From NCBI RefSeq assembly GCF_002367995.1, contig NZ_AP018207.1, positions 4,885,938 through 4,949,937 on the forward strand: a DNA stretch of 64,000 bases, given 5' to 3'. Origin of the DNA: Calothrix brevissima NIES-22. Its GTDB lineage: Bacteria > Cyanobacteriota > Cyanobacteriia > Cyanobacteriales > Nostocaceae. Both the position numbers and the translations under genes were made by a program. Positions within the stretch are counted from its first letter, which is position 1, and each line of letters begins with the position of its first letter. This document shows, in pieces, positions 4,637-8,198 of this stretch. The notes under the pieces were generated by a model that was not told the DNA's origin, did no database searches, and saw only the letters and a program-made list of their open reading frames with translations.

Positions 4637-7600
4637 GTTTCAATGCCTAATAGGAATTAGTTGAAATTTCCACAGTTTTTGATGTTGCTGGGACTTGGCA
4701 AAATCTGTTTCAATCCCTAATAGGGATTATTTGAAATTTCAACTCTAGGCTTGCGATCGCCACCCCAAGTCGGTCTTGGCTTACGTTTCAATCCCTAATA
4801 GGGAGTAAATGAAATTTCAACGTTGGAGGCAACGCTAATATAGGAGGAAAGATGTTTCAATCCCTAATAGGGAGTAAATGAAATTTCAACGTATATCGTT
4901 TTGTTCGCCAGTATTCTCGTAAATGTTTCAATCCCTAATAGGGAGTAAATGAAATTTCAACAGAAAACAAAGCATTACTGATTGACAGGTAATCTCCGTT
5001 TCAATCCCTAATAGGGAGTAAATGAAATTTCAACATGACTGATCAGGAGTTGATTGATAAAGGTTTTAGTTTCAATCCCTAATAGGGAGTAAATGAAATT
5101 TCAACCAAGGGCGTAGTTAAGATTCCTCAAAATCCAAAGGTTTCAATCCCTAATAGGGAGTAAATGAAATTTCAACTGATTGTTTGGGGGGTTGTTCCTA
5201 CTTCTTTTCAAAGTTTCAATCCCTAATAGGGAGTAAATGAAATTTCAACAAATAAATAATAAGGAAACTAAGAAATGAAATGTTTCAATCCCTAATAGGG
5301 AGTAAATGAAATTTCAACTGATGACACATTAGAATCTTATAAATTTGCGAATTATAGTTTCAATCCCTAATAGGGAGTAAATGAAATTTCAACGACAGTC
5401 TTTGCCTAGCGTCAAGTTTAGATTGGGTTTCAATCCCTAATAGGGAGTAAATGAAATTTCAACCCTGGTGCGATGGCGACACACAAGTTTTTTACAAAGA
5501 AGTTTCAATCCCTAATAGGGAGTAAATGAAATTTCAACCTAAGTATCTCGTCTTTAGCAGGTTTATGTGACTTATGTTTCAATCCCTAATAGGGAGTAAA
5601 TGAAATTTCAACTCTAAGCCTAGAGAAGTAGAGATTAAGTAGAGAATAGTTAGTTTCAATCCCTAATAGGGAGTAAATGAAATTTCAACTTGACTGATGC
5701 CATTGAGTCGGCCTTAAGCCGATGTTTCAATCCCTAATAGGGAGTAAATGAAATTTCAACAAAATGTCAAGCGTTACTGGCGCGATGAAATTCCGTTTCA
5801 ATCCCTAATAGGGAGTAAATGAAATTTCAACGCGCGATATGATCGTAATTCCTTATGCCCAACCAGTTTCAATCCCTAATAGGGAGTAAATGAAATTTCA
5901 ACCCCCAAGTATAAGCCCGTGCTTTTATCCTAGTTAAATCAAGTTTCAATCCCTAATAGGGAGTAAATGAAATTTCAACGGCAGGGTTGACTCTGGCAAA
6001 CATCAACCCTGATTTGTTTCAATCCCTAATAGGGAGTAAATGAAATTTCAACTATGAGGATGAAATTAGCATCCTTCAGCAACAATTAAGCCGTTTCAAT
6101 CCCTAATAGGGAGTAAATGAAATTTCAACTAGTGCAACATTATCAGGAAAATTTACTATTGCAGCTGTTTCAATCCCTAATAGGGAGTAAATGAAATTTC
6201 AACTATATAAAGGGCAGCGAGGTACTTCTGTAAGAGTCGTTTCAATCCCTAATAGGGAGTAAATGAAATTTCAACGAAAGTGCGATCGCGGATGGGCAAA
6301 CACCCGGCGAAATTCAAGTTTCAATCCCTAATAGGGAGTAAATGAAATTTCAACCTTGGATGAATCCACAGCCAAAATTTAATAGGGTGTTTCAATCCCT
6401 AATAGGGAGTAAATGAAATTTCAACTTTACGCTTGTTATGCGCTTCTAAAACTGAAGGTTTCAATCCCTAATAGGGAGTAAATGAAATTTCAACTGACAA
6501 ACACAGGGATAGAAGCGTCTTGGCACTGCCTGTTTCAATCCCTAATAGGGAGTAAATGAAATTTCAACTTGCTTGATCCGACAAAGTACCCGTCCGGGTA
6601 ATTGTTTCAATCCCTAATAGGGAGTAAATGAAATTTCAACCAGTGGAGAGACATTTACTTCGTACTTGCAGCAATTGTTTCAATCCCTAATAGGGAGTAA
6701 ATGAAATTTCAACTTGTAGTCGCATATATCTCATTTTGATGCCTCTAGTTGTTTCAATCCCTAATAGGGAGTAAATGAAATTTCAACGAAAGTGCGATCG
6801 CATCTGGTAAATCGCCGGGGGAGATTAGTTTCAATCCCTAATAGGGAGTAAATGAAATTTCAACAGTACAGCTTGCATTTCAAAGTGCGATCGCCTCTGG
6901 GTTTCAATCCCTAATAGGGAGTAAATGAAATTTCAACCCAATCCTTGGAAGAATGCCAAGCCAGTTGCGGGTTTCAATCCCTAATAGGGAGTAAATGAAA
7001 TTTCAACACATAGAAGTTCGTTGGGTTGGTCACGCGGAAGTTAGGTTTCAATCCCTAATAGGGAGTAAATGAAATTTCAACTTAAACTAGTTCCCGCTCA
7101 CACTCAAGTTGAAGTGTGGTTTCAATCCCTAATAGGGAGTAAATGAAATTTCAACGGAATCTATCCCCAGACACCATAGTCGGGTACAGAGAGTTTCAAT
7201 CCCTAATAGGGAGTAAATGAAATTTCAACTGACCTTAAGCTTGATTCCTTATGGGAGCTAGCAAGTTTCAATCCCTAATAGGGAGTAAATGAAATTTCAA
7301 CCACGAGAGTCAAGGGGTTATTTACCTCCATTAAGGTTTCAATCCCTAATAGGGAGTAAATGAAATTTCAACGAACAGGTACGATTTATGGGGAAATTGT
7401 AACGGCAATGGTTTCAATCCCTAATAGGGAGTAAATGAAATTTCAACCCTTTTCGCAAATTTCTTGACTGTACGACCATAGTTTCAATCCCTAATAGGGA
7501 GTAAATGAAATTTCAACGAGTAGCAGCGTTGACGCATTCCGCACTCCCTACGTTTCAATCCCTAATAGGGAGTAAATGAAATTTCAACGTTTTTCTCTCA

Positions 7601-7946
7601 GATGCTCAGGCTTTTATCCTTGGTTTCAATCCCTAATAGGGAGTAAATGAAATTTCAACGTTAGACGGCCAGATTTCATTGTCTGACTACTGCGTTTCAA
7701 TCCCTAATAGGGAGTAAATGAAATTTCAACCTCAGCCTTTTAGCTTTGATTTTTTAGATTTATTTGTTTCAATCCCTAATAGGGAGTAAATGAAATTTCA
7801 ACAAAATTATCAAATGTACCTGAACGCATCGCCCGTTGTTTCAATCCCTAATAGGGAGTAAATGAAATTTCAACCCAGCTTTATTACGCTCCTTTTTTAG
7901 GATGAATAAGTTTCAATCCCTAATAGGGAGTAAATGAAATTTCAAC
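4637..7946 (-). CRISPR. CRISPR array, 46 repeats of 37 bp and 45 spacers
   Basis: The plus-strand repeat starts GTTTCAATCCCTAATAGGG and ends AGTAAATGAAATTTCAAC. Its reverse complement ends GGGATTGAAAC, the usual 3' end (ATTGAAAC tag) of cyanobacterial type I-D/III repeats, so the array should be transcribed leftward. The polarity agrees: the two leftmost repeats (4637-4673 and 4707-4743) are the degenerate trailer copies, and the repeats from 4785 to 7946 appear identical. Spacers run from 32 to 42 bases. CCCTA/TAGGG forms the repeat stem. No cas gene lies in the window, so the array must rely on Cas proteins encoded elsewhere. The subtype is inferred from the repeat only. Confidence 0.98.
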
Positions 7947-8198
7947 GGCGGAAGCCTGAAAGTTAAGCAATATGAGGTTTTCAAGGTTCTGGTGCGCGGA
8001 TGAGTAAATCATAACACAAGCAATAGAGAACAAGCAAACCCAAAATCGCTGAAAGCCTTTCTGTGTAAGGTGCGCGGGCGATAGATAAGTAATTAATCTG
8101 TGAAAGTCTTACAGATAAGGAGTTTCAGCTATGTGTACCAAAATCCTATTTTCCACACCTACCCATCCGCGCATTCTACAGAGAAAATCGTCATTTCC
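7947..8198 (-). promoter_or_regulatory. CRISPR leader
   Basis: The 250-bp gap next to the youngest repeat carries no gene and should be the leader. TGCGCGGATG at 7993-8002 recurs inverted at 8164-8173 (CATCCGCGCA) and in a variant form at 8071-8080 (TGCGCGGGCG). The region is otherwise AT-rich and runs up to the stop codon of the neighbouring hydrolase gene. Confidence 0.7.
8008..8037 (-). promoter_or_regulatory. Putative sigma-70 promoter for pre-crRNA
   Basis: On the minus strand TTGCTT (8032-8037) and TATGAT (8008-8013) are separated by 18 bp. Initiation near 8001 would give a leader RNA of about 55 nt before the first repeat. This is a match by eye; no transcription data were used. Confidence 0.5.

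Follow-up and report, generated by a model that had tools for sequence, protein, structure and literature searches.

The window analysed here, a stretch of 64,000 nucleotides from Calothrix brevissima NIES-22 (contig NZ_AP018207.1), carries an array of clustered regularly interspaced short palindromic repeats (CRISPR). Three of its spacers, at 6276-6317 (S1), 6788-6827 (S2) and 6865-6900 (S3), were the subject of an original prediction that they encode one peptide motif and sample related genes. The leftmost two repeats of the array (window 4637-4743) are degenerate, which fits the expected old end. The region on its right resembles the right flanks of three other arrays in this genome, one of which adjoins cas genes, and because this leader is conserved on the right in all four own-genome arrays that were read, the array is probably transcribed leftward. 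Its repeat is the 37-nt repeat of the array beside the cas genes, which together with the conserved leader links the window array to them. The four arrays of this one repeat type provided 137 spacers, from a genome with about 215 copies of the repeat, of which about 76 reverse-strand copies lie outside the set.

The cas genes are of two effector types. The type I-D locus contains Cas10d (Csc3), Csc1, Csc2, Cas3', Cas6d, Cas4 and Cas1 (all PADLOC matches within C1:690000-722000), including the sole Cas1 gene found. The type III-D genes Csx10, Csm2-like, Csm3-like and Cas10 stand together about 8 kb from the I-D genes, and an array of the same repeat is located between the two groups. A CARF-RelE gene (L032:465-1628) adjoins the III-D genes; proteins of this type are partners triggered by cyclic oligoadenylate.

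S1 and S2 share their first 14 bases, and translated in the same frame they read ESAIADGQTPGEIQ (S1) and ESAIASGKSPGEI (S2). In total 29 of 40 bases are equal, a likeness that exceeds chance. When all 137 spacers were compared with each other (9,316 pairs), the S1-S2 pair scored 18, while scores in the reversed control did not go above 8; two other pairs scored higher (34 and 19). At the peptide level 10 of 13 residues are identical in this frame; since 9 of 12 agree in one reverse-strand frame too, S1 and S2 alone leave the reading frame unfixed. The predicted common peptide holds for S1 and S2, which encode it at their given positions in one frame; S3 reads VQLAFQSAIASG only when the frame starts at the second base.

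To search for the source, the three peptides were merged. In the own genome the merged peptide matched only the three spacers, while in 388 genomes of the order it found, among unrelated genes, two proteins ending ERAIALGKSPNEIQ and ENAIALGKSPAEIE; the other short open frames matching the motif showed no kinship with each other or with these genes and were discarded. We use famX as a label for the gene family matched by S1 and S2. A search of 217 whole genomes with S2 (up to 3 mismatches), in which famX was not presupposed, returned S2 itself and one famX gene of a same-genus genome, G396 (Table 1). The same search with S1 returned only S1 itself; its best match to famX is tied in four genes at identical codons. 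For the codon comparison, 81 distinct famX sequences were kept from 121 aligned rows. The idea that the array sampled diverged genes of one family is thus borne out for S1 and S2, which match the same famX codons, and is not supported for S3, whose best DNA match lies in a control stretch.

FamX is widespread. A database search gave 67 relatives, all cyanobacterial and mostly from genera such as Anabaena, Nodularia and Trichormus, which are annotated as "hypothetical protein" or "uncharacterized protein" wherever the source gives a name. FamX profiles matched in 85 of the 388 genomes from the order at E up to 0.01, in some cases along only part of the profile. Within the family, 74 of 217 genomes had a match, including 5 of 8 from the same genus. 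Self-targeting was rejected, since no famX was found in the own genome by profile searches that scored 8 of 22 and 30 of 84 candidates from the first look. Outside chromosomes, S1 in phages and S2 in plasmids gave only short chance matches; the degenerate motif, the 18-20-nt cores of S1, S2 and S3 and the famX alignments had no match in viral contigs, and neither a 20-aa motif nor the 55-aa famX tail had one in plasmids and phages. To our knowledge few phages of Nostocales have been described, so these are weak negatives.

The neighbourhood of famX points to a mobile element. In 69 of 78 judgeable distinct loci a convergent recombinase frame lies within 1.5 kb of famX, and in none is the arrangement tandem (5 of 83 distinct loci were too short to judge; the recombinase frames are 49-255 codons, measured between stops and in some cases truncated where the locus ends). 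The short recombinase (about 193 aa) matches PF00589 in 11 of 11 examples, and the catalytic residues R, K, HxxR and Y are kept in all 11 aligned examples, with H169 replaced by Y in one; Pfam reports no core-binding domain in it. FamX itself matches PF13356, an arm DNA-binding domain, in 18 of 48 sequences at E up to 0.05 (best 2e-5), although the curated score was not reached (the three scores shown are 12.6, 21.9 and 16.6 bits, against a cut-off of 27). The integrase profile phrog_1 is matched by 16 of 48 famX (E up to 0.05), and one element has famX matching its N-terminal part and the recombinase its C-terminal part. The predicted structure of famX is a three-strand sheet plus a helix (predicted local distance difference test score about 96). 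Foldseek found no famX match in the structure libraries at E up to 0.001, which leaves an arm-domain fold possible, and a sequence profile search of solved structures gave weak matches only (best E 0.13). FamX is predicted to have a domain similar to the arm-DNA-binding one of integrases. Among the papers listed by word-based literature searches, none reported the famX-recombinase gene pair, which is no proof of absence.

Boundaries of the putative famX element were not found. In one genome (G430, loci L186-L190) five dispersed copies of the famX motif lie in one chromosome, their homologous blocks broken at different points. In G396 a 7.1-kb stretch with a collagen-repeat protein (L183:11600-18700) adjoins the recombinase. 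The own genome matches it over 122 bases and lacks the rest. Next to famX in G395, about 1.5 kb of this 7.1-kb stretch reappear at 87%, so the stretch may be cargo.

Other spacers also match these loci. It turned out that 13 of the 137 spacers match famX loci and their flanks at 76% or more (1.017 Mb, overlaps included), while none matches 39 stretches of 20 kb of ordinary chromosome from six relatives (780 kb, taken at chosen round-number positions) at the same threshold, and none of the 137 reversed spacers matches. The famX set comprises loci L064-L206 without L193, L202 and L203, many of which overlap, and the wider flanks of seven genomes were added after the first spacer matches had been seen. 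Spacer 5832-5865 (26/34, no GTN) is counted among the 13 and regarded as noise; spacer 6053-6092 (28/40 in L183) falls below the 76% line and is excluded. Because the control is ordinary chromosome, the enrichment marks famX loci as foreign targets, not as targets favoured over other mobile DNA. In G396, where 60 kb were read, all matches lie within one stretch of 5.8 kb. They come from six spacers of three arrays and fall in famX, the recombinase (34/34), two places of an IS110-like gene and two small open frames.

Table 1. Features of the window and matches of its spacers (L, locus; G, genome)
Feature	Position	Strand	Description or match
CRISPR array	4637..7946	(-)	46 repeats of 37 nt, 45 spacers of 32-42 nt
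Leader region	7948..8191	(-)	75-79% identity over 234-245 bp to right flanks of three other own-genome arrays
Spacer S1	6276..6317	(-)	famX at ExAIADGxxPxEI; best 33/42 at homologous codons, e.g. 'ESAIADGESPTEIE'
Spacer S2	6788..6827	(-)	37/40 in same-genus famX gene, G396:C1:5204806-5204845, 'EIAIASGNSPGEIR'
Spacer S3	6865..6900	(-)	up to 3 mismatches in 217 genomes: S3 itself only
Spacer	7008..7044	(-)	33/37 in L183:5626-5662, 473-aa IS110-like gene (Pfam, PHROGs) of G396 element
Spacer	7082..7118	(-)	31/37 in L183:7350-7386, G396 element
Spacer	6355..6388	(-)	29/34 in L133:12307-12340, 952-aa open frame about 4 kb from famX; GTG on PAM side
Spacer	6714..6750	(-)	31/37 near famX in L179 and L159; GTC on PAM side
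Spacer	5464..5501	(-)	30/38 near famX in L200:13540-13577; GTT on PAM side

The protospacer adjacent motif (PAM) of type I-D is given as GTN (PMC10212523). Flush with the 5' end of the CRISPR RNA (crRNA), GTN was found in 8 of the 13 matches, against a GT background of 0.053 (binomial 6e-8), and with a one-base shift in two further ones, so that it stands beside most sites; the same source describes a one-base slip at the PAM cut as possible in I-D adaptation. S1 and S2 are among the five without flush GTN, and their listed best relatives carry ATT and TCC at that side. At the opposite end, however, GTN is present as the valine codon preceding the motif, in 61 of the 81 distinct famX sequences, among them the closest relative of S2 and three of the four tied closest relatives of S1. 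As this valine codon precedes the motif, it would explain why S1 and S2 start at the same base.

As for the strand, the crRNA would pair with mRNA in 10 of 12 matches whose longest open frame has at least 60 codons (p 0.039; spacer 6714-6750, with a longest open frame of 37 codons, is left out). This is a tendency only, because the exact match to the recombinase gene lies on the other strand, and because S1 and S2 are not independent genes. It agrees with the coding-strand bias of type I arrays that co-occur with type III, as described in PMC8482600. The original prediction had taken antisense crRNAs as what RNA-targeting type III systems require. With the leftward transcription that the conserved leader supports, S1 and S2 are indeed antisense, but this orientation is no sign of type III alone, because the only Cas1 found sits with the I-D genes while III-D is about 8 kb away, and because the strongest match (34/34) has the opposite strand.

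Taken together, we consider it likely that S1 and S2, which match the same conserved famX codons, were taken from integrative elements in which famX would be the arm-binding partner of a catalytic-only recombinase; S3 is not part of this reading. It is likely that the immune memory drew on one mobile element, in diverged versions, on at least two occasions. The mobile-element family that the motif and the spacers were expected to lead to is thus famX in the case of S1 and S2, which is carried by putative mobile elements, and the idea extends to further spacers directed at the same element family. In this mechanism famX would act as a separate DNA-arm-binding partner of the tyrosine recombinase, and GTN would be the mark beside which the I-D machinery (Cas1-Cas2-Cas4) cuts spacers. 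The valine codon just before the famX motif would supply GTN, its place kept fixed by protein conservation, so that two encounters with diverged relatives would yield S1 and S2 with the same edge. Both would have entered the array in reverse of the usual orientation, so that their crRNAs would pair with mRNA; these would suit the III-D effector, but probably not DNA cleavage by I-D. The III-D effector would tolerate some mismatches, and in this way it would also cover diverged relatives.

Two further spacer pairs are possibly additional cases of one target sampled twice. Two spacers in different own-genome arrays, C1:703875 and C1:4479907 (loci L032 and L202), are identical over 34 bases, and the neighbouring spacers C1:4478976 and C1:4479048 agree at 20 of 21 bases.

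The strongest alternative, which we regard as rather unlikely though it deserves weight, is that S1 and S2 were acquired like any other spacer, in the usual orientation, from true sources that have a GTN PAM on the right (NAC in the sense strand), and that their common left edge is a coincidence. Such sources could exist, since NAC directly follows the S1 end in 8 of 81 famX genes and the S2 end in 4 of 81, and of the 11 other spacer matches, 8 have GTN flush on the usual side and a further 2 have it shifted by one base. Ordinary insertion nevertheless leaves the shared edge without explanation, while GTN at the other end is found in most famX genes and in most of the closest relatives, as counted above.

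It is a little less probable still that S3 comes from a famX relative not yet sequenced, which would make the array hold three samples of the family. S3 neighbours S2 in the array and equals it at 18 of 20 bases around the octamer of the highly iterated palindrome HIP1 (10 of 12 outside it), and 'QSAIAQGKSP' is present in the famX protein P0044. How rare such agreement is depends on the reference: at least 10 of 12 bases beside HIP1 agree in about 3 in 10,000 pairs from 210 oriented HIP1 sites of the own genome, and in about 26 in 10,000 pairs from 1,372 HIP1 sites in the loci of relatives, a set that includes homologous copies. Judged from these sequence comparisons, the likeness of S2 and S3 appears unusual but short. 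On the other side, the remainder of S3, left of the HIP1 stretch, has no counterpart in S2, and of the five upstream residues with which S3 begins (VQLAF), no more than 2 agree with any of the compared famX genes at the homologous position. S3 also has no near match in the 217 genomes; among the 3.75 Mb fetched, counting both strands, the DNA most like it matches at 26/36 and is located in a control stretch.

That the likeness of S1 and S2 is due to HIP1 and its favoured flanks, instead of homologous genes, is very improbable. All three spacers do contain HIP1, as the original prediction said, and AGT precedes HIP1 fairly often (at 16 of 210 oriented sites of the own DNA). But 21 of the 32 bases of S1 and S2 outside the octamer are equal, and the two spacers match one family in identical codons, among them the PGEI part distant from HIP1; a fourth HIP1 spacer of the window array (4744-4784) shows no further likeness. 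HIP1 alone is hence contradicted as the cause for this pair, though it may be the cause for S3. The earlier view that HIP1 explains part of the likeness, not all of it, fits S1 and S2, while S3 resembles S2 over about 20 bases around HIP1 only. An origin of S1 from what we take to be an RND-type (resistance-nodulation-division) efflux pump gene, suggested by frames of 1,070-1,110 codons in the motif search with relatives reading ...IAEGKAPGEIQ (50-59% peptide identity), is the least probable of all and was dropped, since famX reaches a 33/42 DNA match to S1 and the pump loci compared alongside are absent from the 14 best rows.

More broadly, and only as a tentative proposal, Nostocales may carry widespread elements run by a split integrase, made of a convergent arm-binding protein and a catalytic-only recombinase; adaptation may return to one GTN valine codon, and a host with both I-D and III-D may keep the reversed insertions usable by its RNA-targeting effector. 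A likeness first seen by eye has in this way become a target, an uncharacterised and widespread integration module of filamentous cyanobacteria, whose famX-recombinase pair is a testable case of a split integrase. The findings also suggest that a PAM can be held in place where the codons of a mobile gene are constrained, which leads CRISPR to sample homologous positions in elements that have diverged. They further suggest that a host possessing both I-D and III-D effectors may retain spacers usable by the RNA arm only.

The arrangement can be compared with three known systems. In multi-effector compatible arrays, one repeat type serves a PAM-selecting, DNA-targeting type I system and an RNA-targeting type III system, with a coding-strand bias (Vink et al. 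2021, PMC8482600). One repeat type with type I and type III is also found here, but the pair is I-D and III-D, the term "III-D" having 0 occurrences in the main text of that paper, and two spacers appear to have the PAM at the wrong end and yet to keep the RNA-pairing strand. With Synechocystis type I-D adaptation, as presented in the review PMC10212523, our arrays share the GTN PAM, Cas4-dependent selection, a possible one-base slip and 35 nt as the most frequent spacer length. The review reports neither a strand bias of adaptation nor data on priming, whereas here the crRNAs of most matches would pair with mRNA and several spacers match one element. The third comparison is with the arm-binding-domain tyrosine integrases of phages and integrative and conjugative elements as described in PMC8138268, which likewise combine an arm-binding-like and a PF00589 catalytic domain in one mobile element; there the arm-binding, core-binding and catalytic domains are in one protein, while here two separate convergent genes occur, with no Pfam core-binding domain. 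What is new is the putative split integrase together with the same-edge sampling at a conserved valine codon, and the remainder fits known type I-D and type III biology.
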